Assembly (NCBI RefSeq): GCF_002742265.1
Contig: NZ_MDGL01000126.1
Location: 1-64,000 of the forward strand
Direction of reading: 5' to 3'
Length of the DNA: 64,000 nucleotides
Origin: Maribacter sp. 4G9
Lineage (GTDB): Bacteria; Bacteroidota; Bacteroidia; Flavobacteriales; Flavobacteriaceae
Part shown: positions 47,117-58,278 of the stretch, one piece after another
How positions within the stretch are numbered: position 1 is the first letter of the stretch
Layout: each line of letters begins with the position of its first letter
Program-made: the position numbers and the translations under genes
Notes under the pieces: model-generated
Told to the model about the DNA's origin: nothing
Seen by the model: the letters and a program-made list of their open reading frames with translations, nothing else
Database searches by the model: none

Positions 47117-47509
47117 ATGAAAAAAACAATCCTAACGTTGTCCATGGCGGCTTTGTTCATGGGCACGGGTCTTATGGCCAACGAAACATCCATCAAAAAT
47201 CACGATATCTTGGAGAGCGGCAAAACGAGCTATGATATTAGTTCTTTTTGCAAGGCTGTCATGCAGGGTGATATTGAAACGGTTGCGCGAATGATAGAAC
47301 TAGGGGAAGACATCGACAAAAAATCCTTGGGCATGACGCCTGCCATGTTTGCGGCGCGCTATAATAAGGCCGAAGTGCTTCAATTGCTCATTGACCATGG
47401 TGCCGACTTGAAAATTAAGAGTAACCAAGGTTTTTCGGTATTTAAATATGCCGAACTTTCAAATGCCGCCGATGCACTCGCTGTATTGGAAAGCGCTATG
47501 GGCAGTTAA
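47117..47509 (+). CDS. Secreted ankyrin-repeat protein, paralog 1
   Basis: A 130-residue protein with a signal peptide (MKKTILTLSMAALFMGTGLMA). About two and a half ankyrin repeats cover residues 45-128, including SLGMTPAMFAARYNKAEVLQ and LLIDHGADLKIKSNQGFSV. Ankyrin repeats bind proteins; the partner is not evident. It is closely related to the next gene at 47797-48183, so the pair arose by tandem duplication. Each copy has its own terminator, suggesting separate expression. Confidence 0.88.
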   Translation: MKKTILTLSMAALFMGTGLMANETSIKNHDILESGKTSYDISSFCKAVMQGDIETVARMIELGEDIDKKSLGMTPAMFAARYNKAEVLQLLIDHGADLKIKSNQGFSVFKYAELSNAADALAVLESAMGS

Positions 47510-47536
47510 GATTTTAGAAACCATCAATCAAAAGGC

Positions 47537-47578
47537 GAAAGGCCTGTTCGCGAATTAGAGAGAATAGGCCTTTTTTAT
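47537..47578 (+). terminator. Terminator after ankyrin paralog 1
   Basis: AAAGGCCTGTTC pairs with GAATAGGCCTTT (one G-T pair) around a 12-base loop, followed by a T run, 28 bp after the stop. Confidence 0.7.
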
Positions 47579-47748
47579 ATTAAAGGAAATTGCAAAAACT
47601 GTCCTGACCGACCGACAAAAACGATTCTGAATATCCAATTTTTCTGAGCGAGGAAAATGTAACTGCAAAACATGTTAAGGGAATGATGGTCATTGTTAAT
47701 TTTTTATTATTATTTTCTTAAAATGAATTATTCATAATATTTGTTGTT

Positions 47749-47756
47749 TAATTTTG
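47749..47756 (+). promoter_or_regulatory. Possible -7 element of ankyrin paralog 2
   Basis: TAATTTTG matches TAnnTTTG and lies 41-48 bp before the ATG at 47797. The -33 box is not clear. The surrounding A/T-rich stretch (47690-47790) is typical of a promoter region. Confidence 0.4.
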
Positions 47757-47796
47757 TTGATATAACAAAAATGTTTAACAATCTAATGTCCTATTT

Positions 47797-48183
47797 ATGA
47801 AAAAAATATTATTACTAACCGTGGCCATAGGGATTTTGAGTTTTTCAAACTCTTATGGTAAAGTCAATTTTGATACCACTACAAACCATGTAACGATAGT
47901 AACTTTAAACGATAATATTAATTCATTGTGCAAAGCAGCCATGCAAGGGGATGTGGAGAAAGTTAGAAGTTTGCTCGCCACTGGCGAAAGTGTAAACGAA
48001 AAGTCCTTGGGAATGACTCCCGCCATGTATGCGGCAAGGTACAACAAGGCCGAAGTTTTAAAAGTATTACTACTGAACCAAGCCAATTTGAACATTAAGA
48101 GTGACCAGGGCTATACGGTAAAGGACTATGCTGAAATGTCCAAGGCGACAGAAGTTTTGGAAGTTTTAAATTCCAACTCTTGA
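47797..48183 (+). CDS. Secreted ankyrin-repeat protein, paralog 2
   Basis: A 128-residue protein with a signal peptide (MKKILLLTVAIGILSFSNSYG) and ankyrin repeats from about residue 45 to 126, for example SLGMTPAMYAARYNKAEVLK. The repeat part is very similar to paralog 1 while the first 40 residues differ. That suggests the binding module is constrained and the leader region is free. It has its own promoter-like box and terminator. Confidence 0.88.
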   Translation: MKKILLLTVAIGILSFSNSYGKVNFDTTTNHVTIVTLNDNINSLCKAAMQGDVEKVRSLLATGESVNEKSLGMTPAMYAARYNKAEVLKVLLLNQANLNIKSDQGYTVKDYAEMSKATEVLEVLNSNS

Positions 48184-50318: not shown

Positions 50319-51479
50319 CTATCTGGCGAGGTACAGAAAGCCCTGATACTTTAAATCAAGGTCCAACATGTCTATCGTATAAAAATACACCCCAATGGGT
50401 AGGCCTTCTTCCCGACCAAATATAATGTTGCCAACATTTGAAAAACCGTCGAATTCGTCCACGTAGTTCGCCTGTTCGAACACTTTTAGCCCAAAACGGT
50501 CGTAGATGCGCACCATATTGTTGGGCGATTCCGCCAACTCCTCCACAAAAAAACGGTCGTTGATGCCGTCCCCGTTGGGCGAAACAAAAAAGTTGTCCAG
50601 GGTAAGTACCTCTTTTTCCAAAGGCTCAAAAGGTATTTGGGACACCCCTAAGGTGATGATTTCATAATCGTTGGGAATAAAGGTTGCCGAAGTTGTAAAT
50701 CCCTGTTCCAGATCGCCCGTAACAAAGGAGGCCTCCAAATTGATCCACCGTTGGGACACTTTGCTCCACCCCACGGGAATGATGGTGGTGGGGTCATCGG
50801 TAAGGTTGGCCATGTTGCTGTCCCTGTTCCAGGAAATGGAAATCGTAGAAGGTACACTGCCCTCCAATCGCCAAAACTCCATATTGGAAACGGCTGCAAT
50901 GTCTATGTCCAATTCCTCGATGTTGAAGTTGCCCGGTATGACCGACTGTGTACTTGGGTTTTGGAAAAAATAAGCACATTTGGCAAAGAGATTGACGCTC
51001 TCAGAATTCAGGGACAAGGGTCGTAAGGCATCGTTGCTCCCTACCGGAAACATAAAATTCTGTTTGTTGGCAATGGCGGCATAGCCGTTAATTTTCTGTA
51101 GGTTGCCCTCTCCGTTATAAAAGGCATCTCCCAAAAAGTTGTAATACACGGCAGGGTTCGCCTTTGGTGTAAAAACATCCCCGAAAATAAAATTGGTATT
51201 ATTGGTGGTATCCAGACCCAAAGTCAAGATTAGGTCGTTTTCAACCGCCACTTCCACATCGTAAAACAATGGGACCACGGTACCAAAAACCGAAACGTTC
51301 TCCCCGTAAAACCCCACAAGCCCGCGGTTTCCATCAAAAGGGGCATCATTGATAAGATCGGTGTGGAAGCCCAAGCTGCCGCCCTCATGTATACGCATAT
51401 TGCCATTGTTGTATAGCACGGTCTGGGCTGTAACACAAACCAAGGAAAAGAATGCAATGATGTTGAGAACTCTATTCAT
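50319..51479 (-). CDS. Secreted protein with type B T9SS C-terminal (gliding-associated) domain
   Basis: The 386-residue protein has a signal peptide (MNRVLNIIAFFSLVCVTAQ). A beta-rich body follows. The last 90 residues form a CHU_C/gliding-motility-associated C-terminal domain: FFVSPNGDGINDRFFVEEL, VRIYDRFGLKVFEQANY and GVYFYTIDMLDLDLKYQGF. This is a type B sorting domain, exported by T9SS to the cell surface. Its ATG overlaps the stop region of the repeat-protein gene by 8 bp (51472-51479), so translation is coupled and the two are likely partners. Confidence 0.88.
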   Translation of the reverse strand: MNRVLNIIAFFSLVCVTAQTVLYNNGNMRIHEGGSLGFHTDLINDAPFDGNRGLVGFYGENVSVFGTVVPLFYDVEVAVENDLILTLGLDTTNNTNFIFGDVFTPKANPAVYYNFLGDAFYNGEGNLQKINGYAAIANKQNFMFPVGSNDALRPLSLNSESVNLFAKCAYFFQNPSTQSVIPGNFNIEELDIDIAAVSNMEFWRLEGSVPSTISISWNRDSNMANLTDDPTTIIPVGWSKVSQRWINLEASFVTGDLEQGFTTSATFIPNDYEIITLGVSQIPFEPLEKEVLTLDNFFVSPNGDGINDRFFVEELAESPNNMVRIYDRFGLKVFEQANYVDEFDGFSNVGNIIFGREEGLPIGVYFYTIDMLDLDLKYQGFLYLAR

Positions 51480-52155
51480 TTTCTTTTGCTAATAGGATTT
51501 GAATGGCTTTTACCTGTTCCTTTAAGGCGTCCAATTCTTTGGAAAGTGCTTGGTTTTCTTCCTGCAAGGTCTCGATTTTCTTTTCCTGTTCTATGGTATG
51601 GAGGAAGAGTTCTTCTATTTTTTCAAGGTTTTGCAAATTTGATTTGCTCAAGTTCCAGGCGCCTTCTTTTTTGGCAGTAGCCGCCGAAGTCACCCCGGGG
51701 AGATGGTTATTAGCCTTAATGAATTGTTCGATTTCTTTTAGAGATTCAAAACGATATGTTTCATTAATTGTTGATGTACCCAAGAAATATTTTTGGAAGA
51801 CGTAGTCGGGTACAAGTGCATTTCCATTCAGTAAAATATCCGCGCCCGAAGTAATCCCCGCAGTTGCATTTATTTGGGCTGTAAAAATTGGATTAATTTT
51901 TGAACCGTCTATTGCTGCTCCAGGGGCAATATCTTCGTTTAATATAGTTCCGTTTAAAATCTCACCAGTTTCGACCGAGTCATCAGCTAAATCATCCGCG
52001 TTAATACTAGCATCAATTATTCTTGCGGAATTTATTGAATTCGCGGCGATGCTCAATGGTGTGCCGGTCTGTCCATCTCCATCGAGTGTGGCATCTGATA
52101 TTACCGCACCTGCTGTCGGTGCCGCCCATGTTGCCACTCCACCTGCGCCGCCCAT
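51472..52155 (-). CDS. C-terminal part of the large repeat protein, out of frame with the main part
   Basis: Open frame of 227 codons. The first residues (GGVATWAAPTAGAVISDATL) continue the repeat pattern of the upstream frame. The end is a conserved Bacteroidota surface or tail-fibre-like module: YRFESLKEIEQFIKANNHLP, then a coiled coil (EELFLHTIEQEKKIETLQEE to the end). The nominal ATG at 52155 lies inside a repeat and is not a natural start. It is separated from the main frame only by the 26-bp duplication at 52121-52172. In the repaired frame it forms residues up to 1660. It overlaps the downstream T9SS cargo gene by 8 bp. Confidence 0.75.
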   Translation of the reverse strand: MGGAGGVATWAAPTAGAVISDATLDGDGQTGTPLSIAANSINSARIIDASINADDLADDSVETGEILNGTILNEDIAPGAAIDGSKINPIFTAQINATAGITSGADILLNGNALVPDYVFQKYFLGTSTINETYRFESLKEIEQFIKANNHLPGVTSAATAKKEGAWNLSKSNLQNLEKIEELFLHTIEQEKKIETLQEENQALSKELDALKEQVKAIQILLAKENE

Positions 52156-55100
52156 GTTGCCACTCCACCTGCCGTGGTCAATACCTCTCCGTCTGCGCCG
52201 GGAGCGATTTTGGCCTCGGTGACATTGGCGTCCAGAATGTTCGCTGTTTCAATGGCGTTTGCAGCGATGTCAGCGTTTGCGATAGTACCATCGAGAATTT
52301 GGCCCGTTGAGATTCCTCCGATTGGTACCGAAAGGTCGGTTGCGTTTCCGTCCCCAGTTATCGTAGTTCCGTCCGTGGATACGGCACCTGCTGTCGGTAC
52401 CGCCCATGTTGCCACTCCACCTGCCGTGGTAAGTACCTCGCCGTCTGCGCCGGGAGCGATTTTGGCCTCGGTGACATTGGCGTCCAGAATGTTCGCTGTT
52501 TCAATGGCGTTTGCAGCGATGTCAGCGTTTGCGATAGTACCATCGAGAATTTGGCCCGTTGTGATTCCTCCGATTGGCACCGAAAGGTCGGTTGCGTTTC
52601 CGTCCCCGGTTATCGTGGTACCGTCCGTGGACACGGCACCTGTTGTCGGTGCCGCCCATGTTGCCACTCCACCTGCCGTGGTCAATACCTCTCCGTCTGC
52701 GCCGGGAGCGATTTTGGCCTCGGTGACATTGGCGTCCAGAATGTTCGCTGTTTCAATGGCGTTTGCAGCGATGTCAGCGTTTGCGATAGTACCATCGAGA
52801 ATTTGGCCCGTTGTGATTCCTCCGATTGGCACTGAAAGGTCGGTTGCGTTTCCGTCCCCAGTTATCGTGGTACCGTCCGTGGACACGGCACCTGCTGTCG
52901 GTGCCGCCCATGTTGCCACTCCACCTGCGGTGGTAAGTACCTCCCCGTCCGCGCCGGGAGCGATTTTGGCCTCGGTGACATTGGCGTCCAGAATGTTTGC
53001 CGTTTCAATGGCGTTTGCAGCAATATCTTCGTTGGCGATTGTGCCATCCGCTATCCTTGCAGAATTTATTGAATTGTCCGCGATACTAAGTGGCGTTCCA
53101 GTTTGCCCATCGCCTGTAAGCGTGGCATCAGTATTTATGGCTCCTCCAGTGGGAGCATCAATCCAGTCCGTTTGAGTGCCCGTAGAAGATAATATTTGAC
53201 CCGGAGTTCCAGCATCACCGTCTTTATCTAAAAGTAGGTTCTCAAGGGTTAGACTTTGAAATATGGTAACGTTTGTATTGCCTCCGTCTTCCTCCATTCT
53301 TAATGCTTCAACTCCACCAACAGCAAAACCAATTTCATCAGCGGCTGGTCTAAACATACCCGTATTGGCATCATCACCTGTACTGAAACTATATGCTGGC
53401 TCTGCTACAGTACCTCCTGTTGATGAAAATTGATTTCCCCTAATTTCACCGGCGACATCTAATTTACGTTCAGGGGTGTTGGTCCCAATACCCAGGCGGT
53501 TCAATCCTGTGTCCCAAAAAAGTTGAGCATTATTTTCTGAAACCTCTCCAGTTGCATCGGCAAAAAATATTGATCCGGTAACACCCGTTAAACTTCCGGG
53601 TACATCCTGCCATGCTACCCCAGTTCCAGTAGAGGTCAAAACTTGCCCATTTGTTCCAACGGCATTTGAATTATCGGCTACCAATCCACCCAGTTGTAGG
53701 CGTTCGGGAACCAAAACATTGGTGGTTCCAGCTGTATTTGTAACAGTCAAAGCCCTTATATTTCCTGCGGTAAGGCTTACCAAATCTGGGGTAAATTCAT
53801 CAAAATGTAGTCCCGTTTCCAAATTGCCATTAAAATAAAAACCTAGGGGGCTAGCCGTTGCGAAACCATTACTCAACGTAGTTCCATCGACATGTAATGC
53901 GGCGGCAGCATTAAAAGCAGGGTTTTGTGAAATCCCAATAGTTCCTGTTCCTAAAAAAGTTAGGGCATTGGCACCAAAGTTGTAAATGCGATCTTCATTG
54001 TCTTGGGTAAGATCGTCAGTTGCTAAATTGGAGACTGCTAAGGTATTGTCAGCCCAGATAACATCAGTGCCATTGGTCGTAAGAATTTGTCCATCTAATC
54101 CCTCAGCTATTTTTTCTATTGTTATACTATTATTTGCCAAGTCATCCGTTGCAATGGACAAATCAGTGACTTCCGCTGAAGTGATGGCGTCTACTGTAAT
54201 GGTTGCCAAACCGGTATTGTCCAATGTAACATCGCCACTTATAGTTCTTTCCTGAGGTGTATTTGTGGCATCTCCAATCAAAATGGTCGCATTTGTTAAT
54301 GTGGGAACTCCGGTACCATCGGTTCTGTCTTCTGCTACAATCCAACCCCCGGTACCTGCATTGGCCGTGGCATCCCATTTAATTATTTGACCGTCAGCTG
54401 CTCCATTTTGATTGATATCTTCCAGCAAAATCGTTCCATTCCCAATCTCTCCTGTTCCAATGGTCCCAACGGTAAACTCATTTCCTAAAGTTCCGTCACC
54501 CGTTATTGTTGTTTGATCGGCTAATTCTATAGAACCCCCTCCACCTGAAAGGGCAGCGTCGATTCCCGCAAGATGGGCTTCCACATCGGGAGTTCCGGCT
54601 GTGTAGTTCGTTGGCGCTGCTGTCACCGCCACCTCGGCAGCGTCCTGATCATCGGTATTATCCAAGTAAGGAGTTAAATCAATCGGCGTTGCCGCGGCGT
54701 TGTTCGTAATTGTAAGTATGTCGGTCGTAAGGTCCAAGTCCTGAATCTCGTCGGTTGGGTTTCCTCCGGCAGCAAGGGCAGCGTCGATTCCCGCAAGATG
54801 GGCTTCCACATTGGGAGTTCCGGCTGTGTAGTTCGTTGGCGCTGCCGTTACGAGCACTTCATCAGCATCTTGGTCATCAGAGTTTATTTGATTAATGGGA
54901 ATTTGTAAAGTTCCTCCTGCATCAGTTAATTCAATATTTAATCCATTAATAATAAATGTTTGATTTAACTCATCTGTCGGTACTCCCCCGCCGGCAGCCA
55001 CAATATTGTCATCTACGTATTTTTTTGTTGCAGCGTCCTGTAGGTCTGTTGGATCTAATAAGTTTTTTATTTGGAGGGTGTTGGCGTCTGTCCCTTGTGC

Positions 55101-56480
55101 TAAAACCTGTGCTAGGTTTTGGTTGCCTCCAGCATTGGCATCTACATAGGCTCTAGTCGCTGCATCCTGAGGATCAGTTGGGTCTAACAAATTTTTAATT
55201 TGAAGCGCATTGGCGTCTGTTCCTTGGGCTAAAACTTGTGCGAGATTTTGTTCATCAAGGTCTGTTTTTATATATCCTAATGCCGTTATATCGGCGTCGG
55301 ACAATTGGGTATTTGTGTCGATATCTGTTAGCGGGACGGCCAGTGTTCCTGCTACATCGGTTAACCGTAATTCTCCACCCGCCACCTCAAAAGTTTGGTT
55401 TTGTTCATTTATTGGATCGCTTCCTCCAGATGTTACGATATCCGCGATTTCGGTATCTATATATCCCTTAGTAGCGGCATCTTGGTCATCCACTGGTGTA
55501 CCTATGTTTTTAATTAATAAGCCACCCGCATCGTTCCCGTCCGCTAAAACTTCATTGATATTTTGAAGTTCGTTATCGGGTTCGGCATCCGCATCGTTGA
55601 CGTTTAAGGTTATTTCATTTCCATTCAGAATTGCAATATTTCCAGGGGTGTTGTCCGAATCAATTGTCTGGTTGTCACTCCCAGTATTGTTTAAAAAGCT
55701 CAAATCGATTTCATTGCCATTCTCTATTTGTAAACGGTTATCAGGGGTTAACGTCAAGGTTTGGTCATCAGACCCTACCAAAGCTTCCAAGTTGATACTA
55801 TTGCTTCCCGTTCCCGTTGCCGGGTTAAGGGTCAACGTATTGGAATCCTTATCAAAGGTCAATTCGTATAGCTCATTCTGGTTCTGCCAATCCGGGATCC
55901 CATTTATGTTGGTCGTCAATATTTGAATTGGCCCTGCAATAGCCATATCACGAGATTCGATGGTTCGATCTATGATCGCATCAGAATCCACGGATTCCGT
56001 TGCAAGTTCATCCGGGCCTACGGCAGCATCCCCCAGTTTATTCCTTCCAATCGAATTATCCTGTATGTCCACACCGTTGATGCCGCCATCAGCAATTTGT
56101 TCGGTACGTATACTATTGGTGGCCACTTCCAGATTATAGTTGCCCTGGGTCTGTGTAATGGCGATGGTGCTTCTAAGGTTTTCAATGGGATCGTTAGTAA
56201 GGGTAAAGCTTACGGCATCGCAGAGATTTACCCATTGGGCACCGTCGTAATAATGGATACATTCCGTATCCGTATTGTACACCAAGCCCCCACGCTGTGG
56301 TGTTATGGTCTCCATTTGTAACGTGGAAACTTTCGAAATTACGAGTACCCTGGAGCTGCTCTCCAGTTCCAATAAAGAGCTTGGGTCAATGTTCTGGGGA
56401 TTGTCGCCAATTTTAATCTGTGCCACGGCTGCCATGGTAGCCATGCACAAAACAAAGGAGAGTATAAAGAGACGTTTCAT
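52101..56480 (-). CDS. Very large secreted repeat protein (main frame, truncated by a frameshift)
   Basis: The 1459-residue frame begins with a signal peptide (MKRLFILSFVLCMATMAAVAQ). It is low in Lys, Cys and aromatic residues and rich in Asp, Asn, Thr and Gly, like phage-tail-fibre or adhesin shafts. Repeats of several ages are visible: LAQVLAQGTDANALQIKNLL twice (about residues 415-500), VTAAPTNYTAGTPNVEAHLA twice (about 530-640), and a C-terminal array of near-identical 84-residue units containing IAPGADGEVLTTAGGVATW. The frame ends in an unrelated 14-residue tail after the duplication. Removal of 26 bp joins it to 51472-52155. No T9SS domain is seen on the main frame. Confidence 0.8.
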   Translation of the reverse strand: MKRLFILSFVLCMATMAAVAQIKIGDNPQNIDPSSLLELESSSRVLVISKVSTLQMETITPQRGGLVYNTDTECIHYYDGAQWVNLCDAVSFTLTNDPIENLRSTIAITQTQGNYNLEVATNSIRTEQIADGGINGVDIQDNSIGRNKLGDAAVGPDELATESVDSDAIIDRTIESRDMAIAGPIQILTTNINGIPDWQNQNELYELTFDKDSNTLTLNPATGTGSNSINLEALVGSDDQTLTLTPDNRLQIENGNEIDLSFLNNTGSDNQTIDSDNTPGNIAILNGNEITLNVNDADAEPDNELQNINEVLADGNDAGGLLIKNIGTPVDDQDAATKGYIDTEIADIVTSGGSDPINEQNQTFEVAGGELRLTDVAGTLAVPLTDIDTNTQLSDADITALGYIKTDLDEQNLAQVLAQGTDANALQIKNLLDPTDPQDAATRAYVDANAGGNQNLAQVLAQGTDANTLQIKNLLDPTDLQDAATKKYVDDNIVAAGGGVPTDELNQTFIINGLNIELTDAGGTLQIPINQINSDDQDADEVLVTAAPTNYTAGTPNVEAHLAGIDAALAAGGNPTDEIQDLDLTTDILTITNNAAATPIDLTPYLDNTDDQDAAEVAVTAAPTNYTAGTPDVEAHLAGIDAALSGGGGSIELADQTTITGDGTLGNEFTVGTIGTGEIGNGTILLEDINQNGAADGQIIKWDATANAGTGGWIVAEDRTDGTGVPTLTNATILIGDATNTPQERTISGDVTLDNTGLATITVDAITSAEVTDLSIATDDLANNSITIEKIAEGLDGQILTTNGTDVIWADNTLAVSNLATDDLTQDNEDRIYNFGANALTFLGTGTIGISQNPAFNAAAALHVDGTTLSNGFATASPLGFYFNGNLETGLHFDEFTPDLVSLTAGNIRALTVTNTAGTTNVLVPERLQLGGLVADNSNAVGTNGQVLTSTGTGVAWQDVPGSLTGVTGSIFFADATGEVSENNAQLFWDTGLNRLGIGTNTPERKLDVAGEIRGNQFSSTGGTVAEPAYSFSTGDDANTGMFRPAADEIGFAVGGVEALRMEEDGGNTNVTIFQSLTLENLLLDKDGDAGTPGQILSSTGTQTDWIDAPTGGAINTDATLTGDGQTGTPLSIADNSINSARIADGTIANEDIAANAIETANILDANVTEAKIAPGADGEVLTTAGGVATWAAPTAGAVSTDGTTITGDGNATDLSVPIGGITTGQILDGTIANADIAANAIETANILDANVTEAKIAPGADGEVLTTAGGVATWAAPTTGAVSTDGTTITGDGNATDLSVPIGGITTGQILDGTIANADIAANAIETANILDANVTEAKIAPGADGEVLTTAGGVATWAVPTAGAVSTDGTTITGDGNATDLSVPIGGISTGQILDGTIANADIAANAIETANILDANVTEAKIAPGADGEVLTTAGGVATWAAQVEWQHGRHRQQVR
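52105..53045 (-). repeat. Tandem array of 252-bp (84-codon) repeats
   Basis: The same landmark (the GCCGTGGT or GCGGTGGT step) occurs at 52171, 52423, 52675 and 52927, exactly 252 bp apart. The units are nearly identical at DNA level, including synonymous positions, so they are recent or homogenised. Units correspond to NILDANVTEAKIAPGADGEV through IANADIAANAIETA. Because 252 is a multiple of 3, all six frames look periodic, which also produces a long antisense open frame. Confidence 0.95.
52121..52172 (-). repeat. Exact 26-bp tandem duplication causing a frameshift
   Basis: Bases 52121-52146 and 52147-52172 are identical 26-mers (GCCGCCCATGTTGCCACTCC plus ACCTGC). The other 252-bp units have this 26-mer once. 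An extra 26 bp shifts the frame by two. The span 51472-56480 is 5009 bp; minus 26 it is 4983 bp, exactly 1661 codons including the stop, so deleting one copy restores a single frame. Confidence 0.95.
54551..55260 (-). repeat. Older, diverged internal repeats in the large repeat gene
   Basis: Two pairs of direct repeats are visible. One lies at about 54551-54658 and 54776-54884 (encoding VTAAPTNYTAGTP and VEAHLAGIDAAL). The other lies at about 55030-55125 and 55150-55245 (encoding LAQVLAQGTDAN and LQIKNLLDPTD). They have diverged more than the 252-bp units, so the gene has grown by repeated duplication. Confidence 0.8.
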
Positions 56481-56771: not shown

Positions 56772-57515
56772 ATGGCCAAGAACTTACTATCGTCCCTTTT
56801 ATTCCTCTTCATTTGTTTTTCCCATGCACAGGATGATGGGAGAAGACTTATTTACGGACATGTTTTGTATAAAAACGTGGACGTGCCCAACGAATATGTG
56901 ATCAACTCTACCAGCGAAGAGGCCACGGAGACGGATGAGGACGGTGAGTTTGCCATTCGGGTTAAGGAAGGTGACGAGCTGGTCTTTACGGCCGTGAATT
57001 ATCAGTACCAAATAGTGAAGATTACTCCGGAAATCCTGGAGAAAAATAGGATCATCGTGAGCGTAAACGAGAAGATTACAGAATTGGACGAAGTGGTCGT
57101 CACCCCCGAAAACGAGGAGCGCTTTTTGCAACTGAGGAACGAAGAGTTCAAAGAGGTGGAATATGAGATCGACCGTAGTACCGAGGTTCAAAATATTGCC
57201 CTTTCCCAAACGGAGCGGGGGATGCAGGACGGACTCAATTTCGTGAACATTTTTAAGGCTATTTTCAAAGCCAAGGCGGATGCCCCGGACGACGGCCCTC
57301 AGGTAGCGGTAAGCGACGTGCTTAGAAGGGTTTATGACAACCGGTTTTTTATGGAGGACCTACAATTGACCCAGAGCCAAATCGAACCTTTTTTGACCTA
57401 TTGCGACCAAAAATTACCGGCCAGGTCCCTTTTGCGTAAGGAAAACGAATTTCAATTGATCGATTCGCTGGTGAATCTGAGTAAATCTTTCCGAGAAAAC
57501 CTGAATGAGGACTAA
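56772..57515 (+). CDS. Exported carboxypeptidase-like regulatory-domain protein, copy 1
   Basis: A 247-residue protein starting MAKNLLSSLLFLFICFSHAQ (signal peptide). Residues about 25-110 form a CarboxypepD_reg-like beta domain: LIYGHVLYKNVDVPNEYVIN, ATETDEDGEFAIRVKEGDEL and EKITELDEVVVTPE, the same module that opens SusC-type receptors, but no barrel follows. A helical C-terminal half has no recognised family. The ATG at 56772 is chosen over the longer open frame from 56646, which would include promoter DNA. Its end overlaps the next gene by 11 bp. Confidence 0.85.
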   Translation: MAKNLLSSLLFLFICFSHAQDDGRRLIYGHVLYKNVDVPNEYVINSTSEEATETDEDGEFAIRVKEGDELVFTAVNYQYQIVKITPEILEKNRIIVSVNEKITELDEVVVTPENEERFLQLRNEEFKEVEYEIDRSTEVQNIALSQTERGMQDGLNFVNIFKAIFKAKADAPDDGPQVAVSDVLRRVYDNRFFMEDLQLTQSQIEPFLTYCDQKLPARSLLRKENEFQLIDSLVNLSKSFRENLNED

Positions 57516-58278
57516 GTTCCTTTTGATTATTCTCTTCCCCGTTCTGGCTTTTTCGCAAACCTGGGAAACCAAAAATTTAAAAGGCAGGGTCACCAGCAAG
57601 GATGGGGACGTGGCGGCCACCCACGTGTTGAATATTACCACACAAAAGGCTGGCATTACGGATATCAATGGCTTTTTTAGCATTTCGGTGCACTTGAACG
57701 ATACCCTGGTTTTTTCGGCCGTGCAGTTCAAGAAAAAGCGCATTGTGGTCACGCCCGCCATTTTTGCAAGCTCAACCATTGAAGTGCCTTTGGACGAGGC
57801 CTTGGAAGAACTAGATGAGGTGGTGGTTACCCCGTATAACCTTTCCGGAGATATATCTAAGGATCTACAAATTTTGAATACGGAACCCGTGGTCACCACC
57901 TCCACCTTGGGCTTGCCAAACGCCTATGTTAGGGTTCCTACCAAAGCGGAACGGGAACTTTACGAAGCCACCTCTGGAGGGATAGGTATTCCTTTGAATC
58001 CTATTCTAAATGGTATTTCCGGAAGGACCAAAATGCTCAAAAAGCGGGTTGAACGAGATAATTTGTACGACCGGACAGGACGTGTCCGTGAATTCTATGC
58101 CGATTCCCTCTACCAAACGGAACTGAAGATTCCAAAGGAAAGGACCGATGACTTTTTCTATTTTTGTGAGGTGGATTCCGCTTTTCAAACGGTGGTGGAT
58201 ACCCACGACCTGATTCAAATTTGGGAATTCCTTGAAAAAAAAAGTTTGGTCTATAGAAAGAATAATGGGTTAGACTAG
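57505..58278 (+). CDS. Exported carboxypeptidase-like regulatory-domain protein, copy 2
   Basis: A 257-residue protein with a signal peptide (MRTKFLLIILFPVLAFSQ) and the same N-terminal beta domain (LKGRVTSKDGDVAATHVLNI, ITDINGFFSISVHLNDTLVF, LEELDEVVVTPYN). The rest differs from copy 1 and is mostly helical. The start lies inside the end of copy 1 (11-bp overlap in GAATGAGG), so translation is coupled. Both may be envelope components working with the M1 peptidase encoded two genes later. Confidence 0.85.
   Translation: MRTKFLLIILFPVLAFSQTWETKNLKGRVTSKDGDVAATHVLNITTQKAGITDINGFFSISVHLNDTLVFSAVQFKKKRIVVTPAIFASSTIEVPLDEALEELDEVVVTPYNLSGDISKDLQILNTEPVVTTSTLGLPNAYVRVPTKAERELYEATSGGIGIPLNPILNGISGRTKMLKKRVERDNLYDRTGRVREFYADSLYQTELKIPKERTDDFFYFCEVDSAFQTVVDTHDLIQIWEFLEKKSLVYRKNNGLD

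Follow-up and report, generated by a model that had tools for sequence, protein, structure and literature searches.

The split fibre-like gene and its neighbours

The window, by which we mean the whole 64,000-nucleotide stretch of the Maribacter sp. 4G9 genome analysed here, carries on its minus strand a fibre-like gene that is split between two open reading frames. ORF1 (52101..56480, 1459 aa) encodes the N-terminal part of the fibre-like protein, which starts with a signal-peptide-like sequence (by inspection), and a repeat body that includes an array of 252-bp units (84 codons each) at 52147..53048 (minus strand; 3.6 copies, 95% matches). ORF2 (51472..52155, 227 aa), on the same strand and in a different frame, encodes a terminal repeat unit with homology to the array (residues 7-80, 58% identity, E 1.6e-17) and a conserved C-terminal module (51475..51810, minus strand; PDYVFQKYF..., with a long C-terminal helix); it has no signal-peptide-like start, and its first ATG lies inside a copy of a 26-mer at 52147-52172. 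Overlapping ORF2 by 8 bp, the downstream partner gene (50319..51479, minus strand) encodes a secreted-type protein whose C-terminus is a type IX secretion domain (CHU_C / Bac_Flav_CTERM), matched in profile searches to PF13585 (E 1.5e-22) and TIGR04131 (E 1.5e-9). The 4G9 assembly, a draft in 196 contigs, totals 4.6 Mb and is 99.98% complete.

Elsewhere in the window, the contig start (1-183) lies in a repeat that is common to the ends of six other 4G9 contigs and is probably a mobile element. Tandem related genes lie at 47117-48183, where one M. flavus protein matches both 47117-47506 (82%) and 47908-48180 (59%), and the ORF at 47797-48183 appears ankyrin-repeat-like by inspection. Beside the fibre gene, two secreted-type proteins with CarboxypepD_reg_2-like domains are encoded next to each other at 56778-58278 with a slight overlap, the match of the second falling just under the Pfam cut-off.

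A 26-bp duplication at the array edge

An earlier sequence-only reading of the window had claimed two identical 26-mers standing side by side, and these were found on the minus strand at 52121-52146, adjoining the terminal unit, and at 52147-52172, at the array end. Other array units carry the 26-mer singly, again as that reading had it, at 52651 and 52903 exactly and at 52399 with 1 mismatch. The whole 4G9 assembly contains 4 exact copies, every one in this array, and 100 shuffles gave 0 matches to the 26-mer. The 163 bp starting at 52147 are identical to 52651-52813, and this length is the longest exact internal repeat of the array. Since 26 leaves a remainder of 2 on division by three and ORF1 and ORF2 occupy different frames, the reading frame depends on the copy number of the 26-mer. 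The frame shift between the two minus-strand ORFs that had been claimed is present, and the accompanying calculation (5009 - 26 = 4983 = 3 x 1661) is correct as arithmetic alone.

The same reading had attributed the duplication to slipped-strand mispairing within the array, an origin that the period and edges of the repeat do not support. With an array period of 252 bp, a slip by one unit would not give a 26-bp repeat. Slipped-strand duplications are expected to carry a short direct repeat at their edges, and 0 microhomology is unusual among them; the repeat in 4G9 has no such edge repeat, amounting to exactly 2.00 copies with 0 bp of microhomology and no further matching base on either side. 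As it has neither edge microhomology nor a period that is a multiple of that of the array, slippage is a poor account of how the duplication arose. Slippage on a 7-bp direct repeat, spaced 33 bp apart at the junction, was also considered and rejected, as it would yield a 33-bp, in-frame change.

The gene is a single frame in relatives

A search of the genus gave a match to the downstream protein in 34 of 35 other genomes, and 30 loci were fetched (L068-L097), leaving out G021 (no match) and G008, G043, G009 and G049 (distant or partial matches). These loci were chosen by the downstream partner gene, and in all 30 the upstream frame ends beside that partner. The whole fibre gene is one open frame in the 17 gap-free loci, five of which come from single-contig assemblies (G007, G012, G046, G048 and G001). 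A contig end falls inside the gene in 8 of the 30 loci and an N gap in 4; the frame stays open across the 8-N gap of G042, and the flanking sides lie in different frames in G002, G006 and G004. The gene is broken in one of the 30, G010, an error-rich assembly.

One relative, G040, shares the array and the terminal unit with 4G9 but carries them in one frame, and its downstream protein is 90-91% identical to that of 4G9. Across the junction, ~600 bp of G040 DNA align with 4G9, interrupted by a single gap of 26 bp and differing elsewhere by substitutions only. The earlier suggestion of one gene split by the duplication is borne out accordingly: G040 spans the junction minus the 26 bp, and the 17 gap-free relatives have the gene in one frame, which argues for a single ancestral gene.

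The locus was compared among relatives, a check of the kind that had been proposed, and the comparison did not support a phase switch: the two-copy state occurs in 4G9 alone among the genomes examined, and G040 has one copy. Inexact matches to the 26-mer with <=5 mismatches were found among the 30 loci only in G040, at 3 sites, none adjacent to another. No exact out-of-frame tandem duplication of period 10-399 was present in the 30 loci (12 incomplete), and over this set no unstable repeat of that kind proved to be conserved. Arrays detected by TRF within the fibre gene of relatives have periods divisible by three, with the sole exception of G010. There, TRF reported an out-of-frame period-100 repeat at the gene break (L097 8277-8496, gene-oriented), and this was weighed and rejected as a second case: by eye, both ~100-bp copies look like ordinary ~99-bp units with an extra base each. 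We set G010 aside as error-rich, since its neighbouring gene contains 2 TAA stops and the assembly is 81% complete; the out-of-frame ~100-bp units in this single-contig assembly probably reflect uncorrected base errors.

A fibre-like body with a conserved C-terminal module

Similarity to tail-fibre families is confined to short stretches of the body: parts of ORF1 match tail-fibre-type profiles (phrog_28766, E 2.5e-9; phrog_1640, E 6.8e-9), and residues 276-351 match phage tail spike chains (9m4d, E 1.6e-6). Neither ORF1 nor ORF2 had a match above cut-off in Pfam or NCBIfam, and the type IX sorting domain was found only in the downstream partner. The C-terminal module aligns across 14 sequences with 62% mean column identity and has matches in 56 of 149 sampled family genomes, 4G9 included. 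It is predicted, at low to moderate confidence, to form a small fold and a ~55-residue helix; in the model of a 144-aa piece (51475-51906; mean pLDDT 60, pTM 0.37), the helix covers residues 88-142. The likely reading is a secreted fibre whose C-terminal module probably serves in trimerisation or forms the tip.

Three of the 30 relatives' loci (G044, G023 and G041) have intact frames that end without the C-terminal module, and their C-termini had no Pfam match at E 0.1. Where the module is present, its identity to that of 4G9 is highest in G007 (88%), G014 (81%) and G047 (79%), and stands at 68% in G005 and G040; for the downstream protein, the corresponding values are 78%, 75% and 80%, with 91% in G005 and 90% in G040. 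Trees were built from 27 rows, leaving out G010 and the three module-less loci, the module contributing 113 columns. The module and downstream-gene trees agree in the main. In the module tree, 4G9 groups with G007 and G014 (support 92/94, short of the starred level), G047 lies near G005 and apart from 4G9, and a clade of 4G9, G005 and G040 is rejected (AU p 0.005). In the downstream-gene tree, 4G9, G005 and G040 form a clade at 100/100 and the grouping of 4G9 with G007 and G014 is rejected (AU p 1.4e-15). We caution that these AU p values are indicative only, because the groups were chosen after the identities had been seen and the module has just 113 columns. The tip has a history different from that of the neighbouring gene, and its exchange between species is the simplest reading.

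Comparison with known switching systems

Waite et al. (2001, 2003) reportedly described sequence duplications that arise spontaneously within capsule genes of Streptococcus pneumoniae (the type 3 locus, cap8E and tts). The passages available from two later papers state that capsule loss in pneumococcal culture was traced to a tandem duplication within wchA (PMC4022640, citing Waite et al. 2003) and that capsule was lost and regained in one pneumococcal culture (PMC3541774, citing Waite et al. 2003). The likeness to 4G9 lies in a surface product that is turned off when part of an open frame is duplicated in tandem; the difference is that reversion and phenotype were shown by experiment in pneumococcus, whereas 4G9 offers one static draft sequence. 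Simple-sequence-repeat contingency loci resemble the 4G9 gene in that a change in repeat number shifts the frame of a surface gene, but they consist of many short units, as against two 26-bp copies in 4G9. Repeat number sets the switching rate, according to a timeline entry for Campylobacter (2012) in a review (PMC11868660), in whose main text, as available, the words 'tandem' and 'duplication' do not occur. Phage tail-fibre-like modular fibres share with the 4G9 gene a repeat body, a conserved N-terminus and an exchangeable C-terminal part; unlike phage tail fibres, the 4G9 gene is conserved through the genus, and its neighbour encodes a type IX-secreted protein.

Recent mutation, assembly error or phase switch

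The best explanation, and one to which we give slightly better than even credence, is a recent, accidental and private 26-bp duplication in the sequenced strain that breaks a conserved fibre-like gene. We infer that the duplication is present in the cell's DNA and is not an assembly slip; it would be recent, since its copies are identical and the C-terminal part is undecayed. The status of the genome as a 196-contig draft and the absence of edge microhomology, unusual for a slippage duplication, count against this reading, and the main rival is an assembly error in which two pieces were joined at the array edge without merging a 26-bp overlap, the real gene being in one frame. Such an artefact is a serious contender, at somewhat below even likelihood. 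It is favoured by the position of the duplication, where the array meets the terminal unit, and by the contig end (8) or N gap (4) inside the fibre gene in 12 of the 30 relatives' loci, which marks the gene as hard to assemble. The sampled 4G9 contigs stop ~180-185 bp inside repeats, and the overlaps found at their ends are of this length (one pair shared 24 bp, in the interior and not at the end). This is not far above the 163 bp of the array's longest exact repeat, which favours an artefact; that 163 bp is still below the length at which these contigs break counts against one. None of 27 contig ends (of 196 contigs; 6 of the ends read as uniform sequence) showed a 26-bp end overlap. Against an artefact also stand the freedom of the window from N and the size of the duplicated stretch, whose 52 bp would, depending on read length, be short enough for a single read to cover.

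The part of the assembly that was scanned likewise speaks against an artefact, since nothing like this duplication turned up elsewhere in its 849,129 bases (18% of 4G9). That scan sought exact tandem duplications of period 10-129, dropping units that repeat a shorter unit and missing duplications across stretch ends; it gave one other, of 12 bp and in frame, so that the 26-bp duplication is the sole out-of-frame one inside an open frame. A control scan of 461,940 bases of G005 and G040 gave three duplications, of 10, 12 and 14 bp, the 12-bp one in frame and the others in no sizeable open frame. When M. flavus ORFs of at least 90 aa, not all of which need be genes, were compared with the window, 75 of 92 matched at >50% identity and the 17 without such a match were not judged. 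Three were flagged, namely the fibre gene, a paralogue in tandem and a gene that runs off the window end, and no further frame break was found among the 75. With no other frame break in these 75 ORFs and nothing comparable in the 849,129 bases scanned, general sequencing error is disfavoured and was rejected as the cause. A fixed pseudogene is not supported either, since the C-terminal part is conserved and has no stop.

That a reversible change in 26-mer copy number yields full-length and C-terminally truncated fibres within one population is, in our assessment, improbable. The adjacent 26-bp copies are perfect and out of frame, the protein is of a surface type, the downstream part is undecayed and the pneumococcal capsule-gene duplications (Waite et al. 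2003, as cited in the passages above) offer a precedent, all of which would suit such a switch. Yet none of the 30 relatives' loci (12 incomplete) showed an exact tandem duplication whose period, in the range 10-399, is indivisible by three, which tells against a switch as an evolved property. The in-gene TRF periods of relatives, divisible by three outside error-rich G010, point the same way; there is no microhomology to favour re-duplication, and a module-less cell would probably make a null product rather than an alternative one. The phase switch is possible but unsupported, and nothing in the sequences compared indicates that the duplication was selected as one. As the two 26-bp copies are perfect, the 4G9 allele may revert at low frequency, and by analogy collapse of the two copies to one is plausible. 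It is very unlikely, in our estimation, that the array edge is a recombination hot spot that swaps C-terminal tips between Maribacter species, with the duplication arising as a side effect through which a single population can switch between fibres with and without a tip.

Discussion

The recent accidental duplication that we favour would have struck a conserved gene which, in Maribacter, encodes a modular, fibre-like secreted protein and has as its partner the gene of a type IX-secreted protein. An accidental 26-bp tandem duplication at the array edge in the sequenced strain would shift the frame and leave a 1459-residue product without the conserved C-terminal module. This truncated product is probably non-functional or unstable, and we infer that it has lost its function.

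To our knowledge, which rests on a non-exhaustive search and on sources available in part, a duplication-type off-switch is known as a kind only from pneumococcal capsule genes. If it is real and reversible, the 4G9 duplication would place an off-switch of this type in the surface fibre of a marine flavobacterium. As things stand, we mostly draw a caution from it: where the gene is repetitive and the genome a draft, one broken frame is only weak evidence of phase variation. Better supported is the finding that the fibre tip has a history unlike that of its neighbour, which bears on the diversification of surface fibres in marine bacteria.
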